DNA of 53,371 nt from positions 1 through 53,371 of IMG/VR virus record IMGVR_UViG_3300048554_000080; one strand, written 5' to 3'. Both the position numbers and the translations under genes were made by a program. Of the stretch, positions 8,292 through 49,056 are shown in pieces. Every line of letters starts with the position of its first letter. The stretch's first letter is position 1. Source of the stretch: a virus. The notes beneath the pieces were generated by a model that saw only the letters and a list, made by a program, of their open reading frames with translations, made no database searches and was not told the origin of the DNA.

Positions 8292-8562
8292 AATGCATCT
8301 CCTATAGATGTTAAGTTAAATCAGCACTAAAATTTTGTGGATTGCTCAACTATTGTTGAACTACGCCACTAGTGCTGGAACGAAACAGAAGGGAATACTT
8401 CATTAAGGGCTAAGTTCTTTCGGGTATCTTCGAGTGAAGGGCCAAAGATACTTAGGTAACTTTAGAGTGTTCTTCTGAAATTTTAAGGGAAGGGTGAGGT
8501 AGGAAAATATGATAAAACTAAAGTTAGACTTTAGAATTACATAGATTTCGGCTCTATTTGTT
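8292..8562 (-). promoter_or_regulatory. Structured 5' leader of the capsid mRNA
   Basis: About 270 bases between the predicted transcription start and the capsid ATG contain no open frame but several nested hairpins. The strongest (8322-8377) reads on the minus strand as CAGCACTA + GTGG pairing with CCAC + TAGTGCTG (7-base bulge). It encloses an inner stem of GTTCAAC with GTTGAGC around an AATA loop. A second stem pairs GTATCTT with AAGATAC around 8430-8455, and a third CTAAAG/CTTTAG near 8520-8535. Possible roles are message stabilisation, RNase processing or translational control. The structures are seen in sequence; the roles are inferred. Confidence 0.6.
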
Positions 8563-8568
8563 AAGGTT

Positions 8569-8598
8569 GTTATACCACATTAACTAAGGTCTTAGCAA
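8569..8598 (-). promoter_or_regulatory. Promoter for the capsid transcript
   Basis: Minus strand: -35 TTGCTA (8598-8593), 18-base spacer, -10 TATAAC (8574-8569). Predicted start near 8562. It lies between the scaffold stop and the capsid gene. The same -35 hexamer TTGCTA recurs at the island promoter 20641-20614, and TTGCAA/TATAAC at 16385-16357. Confidence 0.6.
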
Positions 8599-8603
8599 GT
8601 GGT

Positions 8604-17847: not shown

Positions 17848-17872
17848 AAAAAAGCCCGGACAATGCCGGGCT
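17848..17872 (-). terminator. Island terminator, copy A
   Basis: Minus strand AGCCCGG-CATTGT-CCGGGCT followed by six T. It lies 22 bases after the stop of the 73-aa gene. The block 17848-17896 including the stop codon is a near copy of 18217-18267 (copy B). Confidence 0.88.
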
Positions 17873-17893
17873 GGTTTCGGTTATTGGGCCGGG

Positions 17894-18216: not shown

Positions 18217-18243
18217 AAAAAAAAGCCCGGACAATGCCGGGCT
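18217..18243 (-). terminator. Island terminator, copy B
   Basis: Minus strand AGCCCGG-CATTGT-CCGGGCT followed by eight T, 22 bases after the stop of the 52-aa gene. Stem, loop and the following GGTTCGGTTATTGGGCCGGG up to the stop codon match copy A. Confidence 0.9.
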
Positions 18244-18264
18244 CGGTTCGGTTATTGGGCCGGG

Positions 18265-20760: not shown

Positions 20761-20789
20761 TTGACGCGCCAGTCTTTTTTTTAGTACCT
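20761..20789 (+). promoter_or_regulatory. Rightward promoter-like repeat, copy 1
   Basis: TTGACGCGCCAGT followed by C, eight T and AGTA. Nearly identical to 21268-21293 ahead of the integrase. The TTGACG is a good -35; the matching -10 (GTACCT) is poor, so activation or a different sigma contact may be needed. It lies 55 bases before the 89-aa gene. Confidence 0.5.
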
Positions 20790-21267: not shown

Positions 21268-21296
21268 TTGACGCGCCAGTTTTTTTTAGTTATCGT
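21268..21296 (+). promoter_or_regulatory. Integrase promoter (repeat copy 2)
   Basis: -35 TTGACG (21268-21273), 17-base spacer with GCGCCAG and eight T, -10 TATCGT (21291-21296). Shared with 20761 over 25 bases apart from one inserted C. Predicted start about 28 bases before the integrase ATG. Confidence 0.55.
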
Positions 21297-34724: not shown

Positions 34725-34801
34725 GCGCTTGTAGCTCAGTTGGATAGAGCGTCCGGCTACGAACCGGAAGGTCGGGAGTTCGAGTCTTCCCAAGTGCGCC
34801 A
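34725..34801 (+). tRNA. tRNA-Arg (anticodon ACG)
   Basis: 77 bases folding as a full cloverleaf: acceptor GCGCTTG/CAAGTGC (one G-T), D-arm GCTC/GAGC, anticodon stem TCCGG/CCGGA with loop CTACGAA, variable AGGTC, T-arm GGGAG-TTCGAGT-CTTCC, discriminator G and encoded CCA. ACG would be edited to ICG and read CGT/CGC/CGA. It lies at the convergence of the two arms, one base from the stop of the leftward 1185-aa gene and 4 bases after a terminator. Confidence 0.97.
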
Positions 34802-41504: not shown

Positions 41505-43423
41505 TGCTCGATACCTCTGTAATCAACTTTCAAATACCCCTCTTTGTCTGCGTAGACGCTCTCTGGTTTAACTTGCATAACCTGTTGCGCTATGACGCCG
41601 GTTGTAGGCCCTTTGTCCCATCCCCGTGCCTTAGCCGCGTCTGCCCACTCCCAGCTATATAGTTTAACCCCGTTGGCTAACTCTGCTTTCTCGACTACGT
41701 TTTTCTTCATACGGGAGTCAGAAGTCATGATCATTGCACCGGCAATAGATCCGATTGCGCTACCCAGACCACCAAATAGGCCTGACTTCTTCTGGGCTTT
41801 AGCTTGTGCTTTAGCCGCCTCTAACTGCATCTTAGCCATTTCTATATTGGCTTCACGGTCTAAGGCGTTCTCACCTTCTCTCCATGCATAATCTAAGAGT
41901 GAATCTGTACGATCCCATAACTGGTTCATTACTTCGGAGCTAAGGTTTAAGATGTTCTTTACGTCAGTAGCGGCCGCATTAAAGGCCATTTCAGTTTCAG
42001 TAAGAGTTACAGTCTGACGCCATTGTGCGTTAGCCGCGTCTACTTGGTACTGCATATCAAGGTAGAATTGTTCTCTGCTATTTTCTAGCTGGGCGTTAAA
42101 TTGACTCATGTCGTTACGCTCACCAGCATTAAACATGCTCATCTGGTTAACTTGCCCGGTGTTGTACATGTCTATCTGTGCGCCGAGATTGTCGTAAAAC
42201 TTATCCATCTCGTTCTGTTGTTCGGAGTTAAACCGACGTGCTACGTTTGTTTGGTTCGCATCTTCTAAAATTGATTGAACCATTGACTGTGAGTTAATGA
42301 TCGCAGTCTGTTGTTCGTTAGCTAGGTTAGCCATGTCGTACTGCATAAACGTCTTAGCGTTGTTAACTGCCAAGGAGGTACGAACATCTAAGTTAGCTAG
42401 TTCCATCTTCGACAAGACATTAGCCTTGTTGATGATCATCTGTTGTTTGTTATCTAAATTCTTTACTGTCAGTGTTTGGTAGAACTGACTGTCCGCTTGA
42501 GCGATAGGCAGAGTCGCCTCAATCATAGCCTGTGCTAATGCACCGGTTGCGGCCGTACCTGTAATGCCTTTAAACGCAATAGAACGCGATACGTTACGCG
42601 CTATGCCAGCGGCCCATGTAGGTATTTTGGGCTCACCTGTTACCGGGTCTACAAACTCCCCGGTTAGAATTTCTAATTGGCCTTTTACTGTAGCCTTAGA
42701 ATCTAGGTAGTTTCCTTCTCCAAGAGACTGGGCAAGTAATTTACCCGCGACTGTACTGGTATCAATTACGTTACTGATGTTTTGGTGGGCAAATGAATTA
42801 AGTGCTAGGCCTGTCTCGTTAACAGATCCGTCTTCGTTAACTCCTGTCGCTAATCCTTGCTGGTCTAAGACGATGCCTTCTGGGTCTACGATAGCATCTT
42901 CGTTTGTTTCCATCGTAGCGGCATCAGCCAGATTGTTTGCTACCTGATCTGATGTAGTAGCCGCATCATATGTGCTTGCTGAACTTGGGGGTACTACTCG
43001 GGACGCCGTGTCTACGGCTCCTGTTGCTACAGCCTGATTAAGGCCGTCAGCATCCATGTTATAGTCACTACCATCTAGATTAGTTCCTTCTTCATTAGGG
43101 TCGATATCAGGTACTTGATCCGATAAATTAGCGCCCTGTCCATCAATAAATGCGCTTGTATCGTTAGCAATGCTAGTGGTCATATCAGTAACATTGGTGT
43201 TACCAACGTAATCTGAATTACTGGCTACAGAAGAGTTGTTAACCGCGAAGTTACCGGCCGGGGTATTTGCCTCCGTCCCGGTGTTACCATTAGTAACCGC
43301 GCCCTGACCCCCACTAGGGCCCCCGGGCATAACGGTAGTAGTATCCTGCGCTATACTCATATCTTCCGGTACAGCATTAGGATTACCAATTATCGCAGGT
43401 TTTACTTGGGTAGTTTCACTCAT
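41501..43423 (-). CDS. Virion protein with C-terminal S74 intramolecular-chaperone domain, 640 aa
   Basis: N-terminal 200 residues are Asn/Thr/Asp/Val-rich and probably disordered; residues about 290-560 are helical with Gln/Asn-rich coiled coil (MYNTGQVNQMSMFNAGERNDM). The last 75 residues (SDSRMKKNV, GVKLYSWEW, TGVIAQQV, LKVDYRGIE) form a peptidase-S74 type domain, which folds trimeric fibres and then cuts itself off next to the Ser of SDSR. Finding it on a gene in the internal-protein cluster rather than on a fibre is unusual. Confidence 0.75.
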   Translation of the reverse strand: MSETTQVKPAIIGNPNAVPEDMSIAQDTTTVMPGGPSGGQGAVTNGNTGTEANTPAGNFAVNNSSVASNSDYVGNTNVTDMTTSIANDTSAFIDGQGANLSDQVPDIDPNEEGTNLDGSDYNMDADGLNQAVATGAVDTASRVVPPSSASTYDAATTSDQVANNLADAATMETNEDAIVDPEGIVLDQQGLATGVNEDGSVNETGLALNSFAHQNISNVIDTSTVAGKLLAQSLGEGNYLDSKATVKGQLEILTGEFVDPVTGEPKIPTWAAGIARNVSRSIAFKGITGTAATGALAQAMIEATLPIAQADSQFYQTLTVKNLDNKQQMIINKANVLSKMELANLDVRTSLAVNNAKTFMQYDMANLANEQQTAIINSQSMVQSILEDANQTNVARRFNSEQQNEMDKFYDNLGAQIDMYNTGQVNQMSMFNAGERNDMSQFNAQLENSREQFYLDMQYQVDAANAQWRQTVTLTETEMAFNAAATDVKNILNLSSEVMNQLWDRTDSLLDYAWREGENALDREANIEMAKMQLEAAKAQAKAQKKSGLFGGLGSAIGSIAGAMIMTSDSRMKKNVVEKAELANGVKLYSWEWADAAKARGWDKGPTTGVIAQQVMQVKPESVYADKEGYLKVDYRGIEQ

Positions 43424-43688
43424 TGTTTTGTTTTCTCTTCAATTCTTCGGCTTGCTCGTCACATGCTCGAATCTTGTCTCTGAGAACGATGTAATTGGAA
43501 ATGGCCTCTGAGATAGCTTGGCTATCAGCGGGTAGATCTTCAATTTCGTCTGCTAGACGATTATTAAAAGCCTCTGAATAAGTTTTAATTGAGGGGCAGT
43601 AGACTTCTACTTCAGTTTTATAGACCGTTGTCGCGCAAGCGGTCAGTAAGGTCATCCCTAGTACGAGGCTTATTGCTTTCAATTTCAT
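43416..43688 (-). CDS. Outer-membrane spanin lipoprotein (Rz1-like)
   Basis: 90 residues from ATG 43688 (MKLKAISLVLGMTLLTAC). A lipoprotein signal with lipobox LTAC (lipidated C18) is followed by a short periplasmic part with Cys at 33 and near 74. It begins inside the i-spanin gene in another frame (71-base overlap), the classical Rz/Rz1 nesting. The pair fuses inner and outer membranes at lysis, which shows the host is Gram-negative. Overlaps the 640-aa gene by 8 bases. Confidence 0.85.
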   Translation of the reverse strand: MKLKAISLVLGMTLLTACATTVYKTEVEVYCPSIKTYSEAFNNRLADEIEDLPADSQAISEAISNYIVLRDKIRACDEQAEELKRKQNNE

Positions 43689-43872
43689 TATTAGTTGTCT
43701 CCATCTCCTTGTAAAATTCGGCCCGGTTTTCCGCCGCTTTTGCAGAGGCTTTGACTTGCTTAACCTCTTCAACTTTAGCTCCGTCTCTACGGCCGATGAT
43801 GTAAAGGATGGGTAATAAAGCGGCCACAATACCGGCCACTATGATTTTAATTTTGCTAAAAATTCCGAACAT
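43618..43872 (-). CDS. Inner-membrane spanin (Rz-like)
   Basis: 84 residues: one N-terminal membrane helix (IKIIVAGIVAALLPILYIIG, about 8-27), then a charged periplasmic coiled coil (AKVEEVKQVKASAKAAENRAEF). Paired with the nested lipoprotein at 43416-43688. ATG overlaps the 48-aa gene stop (TAATG). Confidence 0.85.
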   Translation of the reverse strand: MFGIFSKIKIIVAGIVAALLPILYIIGRRDGAKVEEVKQVKASAKAAENRAEFYKEMETTNNEIESNKPRTRDDLTDRLRDNGL

Positions 43873-45024: not shown

Positions 45025-48018
45025 CTAGGAATAGGTTTGGGCATAAGGCGAGGCAAAACCGCTATATACCGATGCGGGTGCCGGGGCTCCTGCTGTGGGA
45101 CTCTGACCTCCCATGTTTGCGTTAGAACCTTGACTAATTCGTCGGTCTGCTATCTGTTTCATCAGACGGTTAATGTCTAATGCCTGTTGGTCAAGAAGGG
45201 CTCCGTTCATACGGCTGTATGTACTTAGAACCAAATTGCCACTGTCATCGATAGTACGTTTGATCATATTGCCATTCGCATCGATGGCGTTCTGGATTAG
45301 TCTTCCTTCACCATCAAATGATTTACTTAGGGCTGTCATACGTCCTCGTAGGCCATCATCGAGGTCAGCTACATCTTCTTCGAGTAATGCTCGAACTTGT
45401 AACAGGCGGGTGTTGAATTCTTTCCTGCCTTCACGTTCTTGATCACTAAGCTCGTCAAATCGAGTAGCAAAGCCTTCCTCAAGGCCCGAAGCCATTCCGA
45501 GTAAGCCTTGATCAATATCACCACCAACTTGTTTGATGGAGCTATCAATCGCTTGTAGGAATTCTTCTGTAGAGTTGAAGCGTGAATCAAAGTCTGTAGT
45601 TAACAAATCAGCGTTAAACTTATTAGACTCGATCAATTGGCCTGTCGCATCATCGATAGTGCTGATAACCAGTTCGCCGTTAGCGTTAAGCTCACGGAAG
45701 ATAAAGTCACCGTTTGCATCCACTGCTGTACGGATTAGGTCTCCGTTACTATCAAATGAATCTGACAATGCTTGGAACTTCTCTTGTAGATCTGCGCCGA
45801 GCGTATCACCTTGAGTAGTCATGATGTTACGCAACCCGGCCAAGTTACCTACTAGGTTAGCTCGTAGTTCGTCAGAAGAGTTTTGAATACCGTCGAATGC
45901 GCTAGTGATTGTATCACCAAGCCCAGCTTGCATTGTGTTCAACTGTGATGAGATGTCCGCAATGTTCAAGGATGTCTGGCTTAATACTTCGCCAGAAGCA
46001 CTGATTTCAGTAGTGATCAAATTACCTTGTGAGTCTAGATCTCTCTGTATTTCAGTACCGGCTTCAGTGATCTCGCTTCGGATCAAGTTACCTTGAGCAT
46101 CGAAGGAAGATTGTAGATCTGCCATATCGCTGGTGAACTGGTCACCAAGGCCGGATCCAACTGTATCAATCTGTCCACTTACGTCGCCTAAGATAGCTAC
46201 GAGGTTAGCATTAGCATCTGCGTTTCCGCTTGCTAGGTCAGAGAACGCTGTATTTAGCTGATCACCTAGACCGAACTGCATCTCGTTAAGCTGACTAGAG
46301 ATATCTCCGATATTGAGCGTAGTCTCGTCGATAAGCTCATTCGTGGAGTCAAAGCTCTTAGTAATGAGGTTACCATTTTCATCCAAGCTACGAGTAATCG
46401 TGTTACCGTTATCGTCAATTGAATCTGCCAAGAAGTTACCTTGCTCATCAAATGCGGCACTGAGTAGATCAAAGTTATTAGTAAGCTCTGAAGTAACCCC
46501 TGTGCCGATATCGCCGATAAGGCTGTCCGTAACAGTAAATGCATCAAGGATGGACTGTCGGCTTTCCGCCGCAAGCTCTGCATCACCGAAGATGCTAGTG
46601 AACTGAGTATCCATGTTAGATTCAAACGTAGAGACGTTGTTCAATAATGAGTTTAGATCAAGCGTCTGTTGATCCATACGAACACCGTTGGCGTCAAACT
46701 GAGCAATAAATAATTCACCTTGGTCGGATAGGGCTCGGGTGATTAAACCACCTTCATTCGTAACAGTCTCAGTAATTAAATTACCTTGATCATCAAATGA
46801 ATCTACAACACTTTGGTAATTAGATTTTACTTGTTCACTCAGACTTCCGGTATCCGCCTGTAAAATATCTTGTACACTAGCGAGTGTATCCACAAAGCTC
46901 TTCTTACGGGCCGCGCCTTCGGTAGTTTGGTCAGTGAACCCAGAAGCAATATCTGTAGCTATAGACCCAAAGTTAGTATCAGCATCATCTGCCGCAGAAC
47001 CTACTGCTGTACCTACATCTTGTACGTCTGTGCCTACTCCAGATATAGAAGCGGCGATATCACCGAAGTTAGTCTCCGCCGTATCTGCCGCACTAGCTAC
47101 ATCAGAGGTTACGTCAGCAACTGCATCTCCTACGCTGGAGAATCCTTCTGAGGTTGCTGTAGCTTGGTCACCCATAACTTGGCCCATAGTCTCAAAACCG
47201 CCCACGATACTATTACCGAGGTCAGTACGAGTCTGATTGGCTAGGGTAGTGTAATCACCAAAGTCAGTTAGATAGCCATCAAAAGCCGTCTGCATTGTTC
47301 CTTGGTTTTCTTGAATTGTTGCTTGGCCCTTTGCCAAATCTTGATAGTAAGTAGCCGCGTCGCCGCCGTACTTGTCAATTAACGCTGAAATAGCCTCTTG
47401 CCCGGTTAGGACGTTGCTTGAGGTCTCGGTTAATTGATCGCCGATAGCAGTACCTACTGCATCAATATTTTCGTTGGTAGTGTCAAAACCTGTGTTTGTA
47501 GCATCCAACAAAACGGCGTCATTTGTGTTTACTGTGTCAGTGAGAGTGCTGAACCCAGTGTTAAGGTTTTCATTAGTGGTGGTGAAACCAGTAGCCATGT
47601 CATCGACAATTTCGTCACCTCGTTGGTCTACTACGTTGACTATGTAATCTTCGGCATCGGTAATGTCGTTTCCTACGTTTTCAAAGCCGGTAGCAATATT
47701 CTCATCTGTTTGGGTTAGACGAGTATCTACGCTTGTAGCTAGATCATCTTGGCCGGTAAGAACATCAGCAAACCCGGTACTCATATCGGTACCAAGCCCT
47801 GTTAGGCTAGAGTCAACATTAGCAAAGCCTGTAGCATTTGCGTCCGCCATACTCCCTAAAGTATCAACAGTAGTGTTGTACCTTTCTTCAGCGGCCGTTC
47901 CTAAGCCACTAATGTCCGAACGAATAGTTTCCTGACCAGCTTGTAGGTTATCGAATTGATCGTCCCCTAAGCCTGTTTCCGTGACATTGGTTGTTCTGCT
48001 TCCGCCGCCTCCGCACAT
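45025..48018 (-). CDS. Large repeat-containing virion protein, 997 aa
   Basis: Start at ATG 48018 (MCGGGGSRTTNV) with AGAGAGGTG 2-9 bases upstream; a 13-residue longer frame lies in the GNAT gene. Residues 1-390 are dominated by short Gly/Phe/Thr motifs (TGFANV, TGFTTTNEN) suited to a long coiled coil. From about 407 a roughly 60-residue module (F-D-x-x-G-N-L-I ... D-x-x-G-N-x-I-x-R ... LNIxxISSQL) recurs at about 407, 521, 637, 754 and 899, each followed by about 55 residues of coiled coil. No enzymatic domain. A fibre, spike or ejection protein is possible; it is not a recognised family. Confidence 0.75.
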   Translation of the reverse strand: MCGGGGSRTTNVTETGLGDDQFDNLQAGQETIRSDISGLGTAAEERYNTTVDTLGSMADANATGFANVDSSLTGLGTDMSTGFADVLTGQDDLATSVDTRLTQTDENIATGFENVGNDITDAEDYIVNVVDQRGDEIVDDMATGFTTTNENLNTGFSTLTDTVNTNDAVLLDATNTGFDTTNENIDAVGTAIGDQLTETSSNVLTGQEAISALIDKYGGDAATYYQDLAKGQATIQENQGTMQTAFDGYLTDFGDYTTLANQTRTDLGNSIVGGFETMGQVMGDQATATSEGFSSVGDAVADVTSDVASAADTAETNFGDIAASISGVGTDVQDVGTAVGSAADDADTNFGSIATDIASGFTDQTTEGAARKKSFVDTLASVQDILQADTGSLSEQVKSNYQSVVDSFDDQGNLITETVTNEGGLITRALSDQGELFIAQFDANGVRMDQQTLDLNSLLNNVSTFESNMDTQFTSIFGDAELAAESRQSILDAFTVTDSLIGDIGTGVTSELTNNFDLLSAAFDEQGNFLADSIDDNGNTITRSLDENGNLITKSFDSTNELIDETTLNIGDISSQLNEMQFGLGDQLNTAFSDLASGNADANANLVAILGDVSGQIDTVGSGLGDQFTSDMADLQSSFDAQGNLIRSEITEAGTEIQRDLDSQGNLITTEISASGEVLSQTSLNIADISSQLNTMQAGLGDTITSAFDGIQNSSDELRANLVGNLAGLRNIMTTQGDTLGADLQEKFQALSDSFDSNGDLIRTAVDANGDFIFRELNANGELVISTIDDATGQLIESNKFNADLLTTDFDSRFNSTEEFLQAIDSSIKQVGGDIDQGLLGMASGLEEGFATRFDELSDQEREGRKEFNTRLLQVRALLEEDVADLDDGLRGRMTALSKSFDGEGRLIQNAIDANGNMIKRTIDDSGNLVLSTYSRMNGALLDQQALDINRLMKQIADRRISQGSNANMGGQSPTAGAPAPASVYSGFASPYAQTYS

Positions 48019-48019
48019 A

Positions 48020-48484
48020 TTACACCTCTCTTTTCGTAATAAAACCGACTTTCTCAAAGCCGTGTTTTTGTATTAATTTTTCGTACCCGGGCCCTGCAAT
48101 TCCGCTGGTAATCCCTATACAAATCTCGTGGGCATTCTTTTTCTCTGCCCAGTTAAAAAATTGTCTAAGCATATTTACTATAGACTTCGTTATTCCATCC
48201 CGGTGTTCTGGTTTGAACACCATCACTAGATCTTGAGCTATCAACTTATCGCTGAAAAAATACTCAGATATGTTAGCTAGAAAGAAACCAATGATTTCCT
48301 TGTCTTGCTCAACAACACGCATAAAGGTTGTTGTGTCAGGCTTACTGCCTGTAGCTACCCAGTAGTAGGATTTCTTATCTGACCAGCCACACTTTTCGTA
48401 TAGGCTGTTTTCTTGGAACCAACGGCCTAAATCATTGATCTGGGCGTAGTCCTCTAAAGTAGGGGGGCGAACGATATATTTCAT
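48020..48484 (-). CDS. GNAT-like acyltransferase
   Basis: 154 residues from ATG 48484 (MKYIVRPPTLEDYAQINDL). The pattern V-RPPTLEDY-x-I, then FLANISEYF, LVMVFKPEHRDGITKSIVNML (acetyl-CoA loop-like R-x-x-G-I/T), and the C-terminal YEKLIQKHGFEKVGF are those of GNAT acetyltransferases; such genes also occur among virion genes of T7-like phages. Substrate unknown. No SD precedes either this ATG or the alternative TTG 48508. First gene behind the operator-bearing promoter. Confidence 0.7.
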   Translation of the reverse strand: MKYIVRPPTLEDYAQINDLGRWFQENSLYEKCGWSDKKSYYWVATGSKPDTTTFMRVVEQDKEIIGFFLANISEYFFSDKLIAQDLVMVFKPEHRDGITKSIVNMLRQFFNWAEKKNAHEICIGITSGIAGPGYEKLIQKHGFEKVGFITKREV

Positions 48485-48509: not shown

Positions 48510-48535
48510 AAAGAGGATAAACTTAGAACCTCTTT
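48510..48535 (-). promoter_or_regulatory. Leader hairpin ahead of the GNAT gene
   Basis: Minus strand AAAGAGG-N12-CCTCTTT, a 7-bp stem starting about at the predicted transcription start. The 5' arm contains the only SD-like AGAGG of the leader, so pairing would hide it. No T-run follows. Confidence 0.55.
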
Positions 48536-48544
48536 CTATCCAGT

Positions 48545-48574
48545 ATTATACACCAGAAAGGGTGTATTATACAA
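48545..48574 (-). promoter_or_regulatory. Promoter with palindromic operator (lysis/virion genes)
   Basis: Minus strand: -35 TTGTAT (48574-48569), 18-base spacer, perfect -10 TATAAT (48550-48545). The spacer holds an inverted repeat ATACACC-N6-GGTGTAT (48548-48567) and a second TATAAT (48571-48566). Predicted start near 48538. It reads into GNAT, the 997-aa protein and the lysis genes. Confidence 0.7.
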
Positions 48575-48585
48575 GGTAAATACAC

Positions 48586-49056
48586 TTATATCAGGTCTGC
48601 TTTTATCGCTATATACAATGCTAGAGCTAATAAACTACCTAACATGATAAATAGCGCAGTACCTAGATATATCTCCTCCCAAAGCTGATTGCGTTTATGT
48701 TTTTTTCTTTTCGCTATTAGCTCGGCCCGAACCATCTTTCTCTTAGATTCGGCTTGTAGTTGCTTCATTCGTTTAAAAAGATCAGCGTTACCGGTTAGTA
48801 CGCATATATCTTTTAGTTCCCGCTCAAAATCTGCGACTCTTTTCTCTGCGAGTGCTAACTGACTAGCGTCTGCTAGTGACAGTATTCCCCCGTTCTTCTT
48901 GTCTTGTTTAACTTGCTCAATGGCTGTGCTTGCTACACTAAGTCTATGTAGTGCTTGGCCTAGTCCTTGAGCGTTATTAGATGTTTGCTTGAGTGTGCTG
49001 ACCGCAGAATTTACTGCATTCAGTGTACCCATAATGGCACTGATTTCTGCTATCAA
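48586..49056 (-). CDS. Coiled-coil protein with C-terminal membrane helix, 156 aa
   Basis: Helical throughout (STLKQTSNNAQGLGQALHR, then LALAEKRVADFERELKDI), basic stretch KRKKHKRNQ, then a membrane helix (LGTALFIMLGSLLALALYIAI). The annotated start is TTG 49056; ATG 49032 would give 148 residues and neither has a good SD. Function unknown; the design fits an inner-membrane protein of the late operon. Confidence 0.65.
   Translation of the reverse strand: MIAEISAIMGTLNAVNSAVSTLKQTSNNAQGLGQALHRLSVASTAIEQVKQDKKNGGILSLADASQLALAEKRVADFERELKDICVLTGNADLFKRMKQLQAESKRKMVRAELIAKRKKHKRNQLWEEIYLGTALFIMLGSLLALALYIAIKADLI

Follow-up and report, generated by a model that had tools for sequence, protein, structure and literature searches.

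A conserved sigma70-type promoter ahead of the acyltransferase, tail and lysis genes of an HMO-2011-type phage, and a recurrent operator in its relatives

The DNA analyzed here ('the window', the entire 53,371-base virus record IMGVR_UViG_3300048554_000080 of IMG/VR) contains a sigma70-type promoter, P_GNAT, that is real and conserved among related phages (Table 1). We consider it likely that P_GNAT is an internal late promoter of the host-sigma70 kind, that some temperate relatives have tied it to a regulator of their own, and that this link has been lost or changed in the window phage.

Table 1. Positions of the features discussed in the text (window coordinates)
Feature	Position	Strand	Details
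Coat-gene promoter P_coat, TTGCTA-N18-TATAAC	8555..8598	-	spacer AGACCTTAGTTAATGTGG; top match in the window to the matrix of the relatives' P_GNAT promoters
Rz-like spanin pair, overlapping	43416..43872	-	PHROG 1026 and 456
Endolysin (phage lysozyme)	44018..44749	-	PF00959, 2.4e-42
998-aa tail-type protein, N-terminal GGGG, immediately 3' of GNAT	45025..48021	-	PHROG 1272 tail tape measure, 2.3e-12; homologs in CRP phages
GNAT-type acetyltransferase	48023..48484	-	PHROG 1249, E=9e-18; ATG start, no SD
7-bp stem AAAGAGG-N12-CCTCTTT	48510..48535	-	at expected mRNA 5' end; not SD-hiding
Sigma70-type promoter P_GNAT	48545..48574	-	TTGTAT (48574-48569), 18-nt spacer, TATAAT (48550-48545); counterpart in L003; same position in >100 relatives
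Palindrome ATACACC-N6-GGTGTAT	48548..48567		overlaps spacer and -10; outer CACC/GGTG as in relatives' operator, inner bases differ
Second TATAAT	48566..48571	-	overlaps -35; would require CTGATA as -35 at 48594; GATAAG in L003

The phage, its late genes and the promoter

HMO-2011-type phages are among the dominant virus groups of the ocean. Sequence comparison assigns the window phage to this type, with the roseophages CRP-3, CRP-212, CRP-235 and CRP-738 as its nearest relatives; its TerL is ~70% identical to those of these four cultured phages. Subgroup III of the type is represented by CRP-3 and other roseophages, and integration has been reported for CRP-3 (PMC9038755); all four isolates presumably belong to this subgroup. 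The window phage resembles them in TerL, in gene order and in encoding a tyrosine integrase, and differs in that a GNAT occupies its acyltransferase site, that it encodes a tail-type protein of 998 aa and that the palindrome in its promoter spacer is non-consensus. A megablast search of phage records with the promoter region found no match, and a search of genomes for prophages gave one close match, a Rhodobacteraceae MAG contig. Two further elements of the window were observed in passing: a tRNA-Arg (ACG) at 34725-34801, where the two gene arms of this integrase-bearing phage meet and which is possibly the relic of an attachment site, and a duplicated element (AGCCCGG-acaatg-CCGGGCT beside an A/T run, at 17848-17893 and 18219-18258) that, read on the minus strand, resembles an intrinsic terminator in two copies.

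The late genes lie on the minus strand, and P_GNAT occupies a gap of 105 nt between a 156-aa gene (ending at 48586) and the GNAT start codon; the GNAT is followed by the 998-aa tail-type protein, a small XhlA-like protein, the endolysin and the spanins. Read along that strand, the gap runs TTTACC TTGTAT-N18-TATAAT ACTGGATAG AAAGAGG-N12-CCTCTTT ATTG...ATG, with a transcription start expected near 48538. An earlier, sequence-only reading had described a near-consensus promoter heading the lysis half of the late operon. The promoter is where that reading placed it and is kept among relatives, with hexamers that agree with the sigma70 consensus at 9 of 12 positions (only 3 of 6 in the -35) and a spacing of 18 nt, within the 16-18 nt expected of sigma70. 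The block that it heads does include the lysis genes but is not purely lytic, since it starts with the GNAT and the tail-type protein. The second TATAAT that the same reading had pointed out is present but not conserved.

The score of the promoter was equaled by just one of 155 control windows from the same late region. As a bare consensus match, however, P_GNAT is ordinary, since such matches in that region number 27 against 33 expected; it stands out only through its conservation. Against a matrix built from the relatives' acyltransferase promoters (with the window left out) it reaches a modest 10.0 bits and ranks fifth in the window.

That conservation is seen in the nearest divergent relative, locus L003, whose GNAT is 89% identical and whose counterpart promoter reads TTGATA-N18-TATAAT: a 32-nt promoter block is 75% identical between the two, the 300 nt upstream are unrelated, and the leader has diverged. 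A scan anchored on the lysozyme gene yielded 80 loci with the gene order variable tail genes, gap, acyltransferase, GGGG-type tail protein and lysozyme, and the gap mostly contains CTTGC(A/C)A-N17/18-TATA(A/C)T some 20-60 nt ahead of the start codon. In 35 of these loci a promoter is found at the P_GNAT position, and 22 of the 35 gaps reach the 99th percentile of all other windows taken from the matching strand of those loci (P=5e-19). Of 130 distinct further gaps, drawn from three acyltransferase scans and compared with gene interiors, 91 reach the 99th percentile (P=2e-44). Since sites are shared through common descent among many relatives, neither these promoter counts nor the operator counts given below are independent. 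Some related loci (CRP-3, L073 and L076) have no good promoter at this position. A search of viral contigs for the exact pattern from the spacer to TATAATAC returned just two loci, both already known.

Behind the promoter stand three types of acyltransferase: GNAT, the HlyC family (PF02794, 1.6e-15), and a type with no Pfam match but with a predicted GNAT-like fold (pLDDT of the model 77; top PDB match E=4.6e-5). The promoter is therefore tied to the position and not to one gene. That the three types replace one another at a constant position ahead of the GGGG-type tail protein (window 48023-48484; loci L025-L099 and L106-L340) is an observation in its own right, and suggests acylation of a virion protein.

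Prophage accessory genes often carry a promoter of their own, and P_GNAT could accordingly be a moron-type promoter that serves the exchangeable acyltransferase gene alone. The exchange of three enzyme types behind it would suit this explanation, as would a weak terminator-like stem (48062-48046) in the 3' end of the GNAT gene. That stem is, however, AU-rich with a poor T run, in a region where terminator-like sites are common, and the next gene begins at or beside the acyltransferase stop codon, so the pair is probably coupled; we regard this alternative as quite unlikely. Phages that use the sigma70 RNA polymerase of their host have comparable promoters (TTGNNN-N17/18-TATAAT) inside the late operon before a functional block, from which P_GNAT differs in its placement, where a hypervariable tail-fibre block meets the acyltransferase-lysis genes. 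The kind of system is known and its members described here are new; the literature on the HMO-2011-type group yielded no promoter data, and PMC9038755 does not mention the word 'promoter'. A search with PF00940 for a T7-like single-subunit RNA polymerase gave no match in the contig, and none in the control genomes either.

The window palindrome and the relatives' operator

The sequence-only reading had also taken the perfect palindrome within P_GNAT for an operator. The palindrome is exact, and some relatives do have an operator at this place, but in the window phage the dyad, although it overlaps a promoter, is indistinguishable from one arising by chance. Perfect inverted repeats with arms of at least 7 and loops of 3-8 number 16 in the window and 17.9 in dinucleotide shuffles, and one arises in 3.6% of shuffles of the 105-nt gap; given counts equal to those of shuffled DNA, the palindrome is not beyond chance. 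A search of the phage and its relatives, as that reading had proposed, found a single copy in the contig, with no repetition at other promoters, and broken arms in L003 (GTACACC-CTTTAT-GAGATAT). The arms have no further occurrence in the contig's noncoding DNA and are shared with none of its recurrent words. A direct repeat elsewhere in the window, TTGACGCGCCAGT(C)TTTTTTTTAGT at 20761-20785 and 21268-21291, precedes a small ORF and the integrase and could be a regulatory repeat of the window's own.

In relatives, the spacers at the P_GNAT position hold CACTTAGTTAAGTG, CACTTAGCTAAGTG, CACCTAACTAGGTG and similar sequences. A column-wise dyad test across 118 promoters detected only weak symmetry (center -8.5, with 39% paired versus 35% by arm swapping), because the centers shift between lineages, and was replaced by a pattern test against permuted symmetric patterns. 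Among 16 near-complete genomes, all six exact CACYTANNTARGTG sites are noncoding, compared with a mean of 0.05 for the permuted patterns; with up to one mismatch there are 22 noncoding sites, against a mean of 1.1 and a maximum of 14 for 179 permuted patterns, that maximum coming from a near-identical permutation. The pattern has 23 sites in 11 genomes and its reversal 4. CACYTANNTARGTG is thus a recurrent symmetric operator in the noncoding promoter DNA of these relatives, above chance. The promoters concerned serve int, the acyltransferase block and further genes, and most sites adjoin a TTGAC -35 or occupy the spacer, one integrase promoter included. CRP-212 carries three exact sites, including the spacer of its acyltransferase promoter and the region upstream of its integrase, both of which contain ACACTTAGTTAGGTGTC. 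Copies of CACYTANNTARGTG were noted at CRP-212 positions 349, 25973 and 48590, at CRP-3 46711, and in G001, G002, G006, G008 and G009.

In CRP-212, gp55 is a protein of 221 aa in which an HTH scores below threshold, and the genomes with exact sites (CRP-212, CRP-3, G001 and G002) are exactly those that encode a homolog of it. This makes gp55 a candidate regulator, a lead and no more, as the four genomes are close kin. The window has no gp55 and retains only the outer CACC/GGTG: its palindrome differs from CACYTANNTARGTG at 4 of 12 positions, and it contains no site within two mismatches of CACTTAGTTAAGTG. An operator in the acyltransferase promoter accordingly holds for some relatives and not demonstrably for the window phage. 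The OR and OL of lambda-type phages are operators inside promoters, and the palindrome of the CRP-212-like relatives is similar in filling the -35/-10 spacer, recurring in noncoding DNA and lying near int; it is unlike them in belonging to a late, lysis-linked promoter and in having just a candidate (CRP-212 gp55) for its regulator. The window's own palindrome does not share these lambda-type features.

The palindrome could still be a working, lineage-specific operator at which a diverged phage regulator blocks or activates P_GNAT. Its position and 14-nt span match those of the relatives' operator, the outer CACC/GGTG are kept, and compensated changes occur in relatives, for example CACTTA/TAAGTG and CACCTA/TAGGTG; its single copy, its chance-level frequency, its disruption in L003 and the lack of a gp55 homolog nevertheless lead us to consider this unlikely. 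Alternatively, it could form a hairpin in mRNA reading through from upstream, as a processing or stabilizing stem past the upstream stop codon. The predicted RNA fold is good (-13.2 kcal/mol, z=-3.2), but the palindrome is broken in L003, lacks a U run and is hence no terminator, and the relatives' dyads, with their 2-nt center, suit DNA sites better than RNA stems, so that this possibility appears highly improbable. A terminator reading of the stems was ruled out by the missing U run.

The GNAT leader

A second level of control had been proposed in the form of a hairpin at the mRNA 5' end, acting with the operator by hiding the only SD-like word ahead of the GNAT gene. The stem is real, begins at the expected 5' end and contains AGAGG, and a small stem (TAGAGA-AAATC-TCTCTA) occupies the equivalent point in L003. 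A sequestering stem would pair an SD lying 5-12 nt before the start codon, however, and the distance from the end of AGAGG is 44 nt to the GNAT ATG (48484) and 20 nt to an in-frame TTG (48508), so that it can serve neither start codon as an SD. Nor does the GNAT have an SD that a stem could hide: at usable distance from its ATG there is no SD-like word of at least 3 bases, a condition almost unique among the late genes checked. The SD of L003 (AAGG) lies outside its 5' stem. The stem is also modest (-7.2 kcal/mol, reached by 14 of 200 dinucleotide shuffles of the 34-nt segment and by 7 of 200 base shuffles of the whole leader) and unconserved, the leaders of 83 relatives being unstructured on average (mean z=+0.05). 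Two-level control of this type is the least probable explanation that we considered, and the SD-hiding role of the hairpin is rejected; a stem that stabilizes the 5' end in the sub-lineage of the window and L003 is possible from the sequence. The GNAT start itself is preceded by a pyrimidine-rich stretch, CCCCCTCCCTTTACTTC, where the L003 counterpart has AAGG.

The coat-gene promoter and the proposed role of P_GNAT

The best match in the window to the relatives' matrix is a promoter of the coat gene, P_coat (19.8 bits, at 8598 on the minus strand); this brings the conserved sigma70-type promoters of the late operon to at least two. The CTTAGTTAATG of the P_coat spacer resembles the core of the relatives' operator. 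As a separate observation, the coat gene has a conserved leader of 200-300 nt behind its conserved promoter (window 8292-8603, minus strand; coat loci L341-L420). A three-helix element in the leader of relatives, ACCAGTG..GGCCCG..CGCACCC..CACTGCCAC, has changed on both sides in 8 of its 18 pairs, a number reached by none of 500 shuffles. Rfam searches of the window and the coat loci of 15 relatives detected only the tRNA in the window and nothing in the others. The element would appear to be a structured mRNA leader of HMO-2011-type phages, so far undescribed.

We propose that P_GNAT would be read by the sigma70 RNA polymerase of the host, its transcript, like all those considered here, being a predicted one. 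Placed at the border between fast-changing tail-fibre genes and the conserved acyltransferase/tail/lysis block, it would keep that block transcribed regardless of the cassette upstream, with the coat gene served by its own promoter further upstream. The -35/-10 spacer of several temperate relatives would double as a CACYTANNTARGTG site for a phage-wide regulator that also acts at the integrase promoter; we infer that this regulator would most simply be a repressor that silences the lysis-linked block in the prophage. The site in the window is degenerate or replaced, with CACC/GGTG remaining, and control by the regulator has probably been lost or altered there.

A more specific proposal is that a regulator particular to subgroup III, acting through CACYTANNTARGTG at both the integrase promoter and the acyltransferase-tail-lysis promoter, forms a direct prophage lock that the window lineage has re-coded or lost; this is tentative and, in our estimation, somewhat doubtful. 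The timing of late genes and the control of lysogeny would become directly testable in isolates through the conserved late promoter at the seam with the tail-fibre genes and through the repeated operator that links it to the integrase in CRP-212 and CRP-3.
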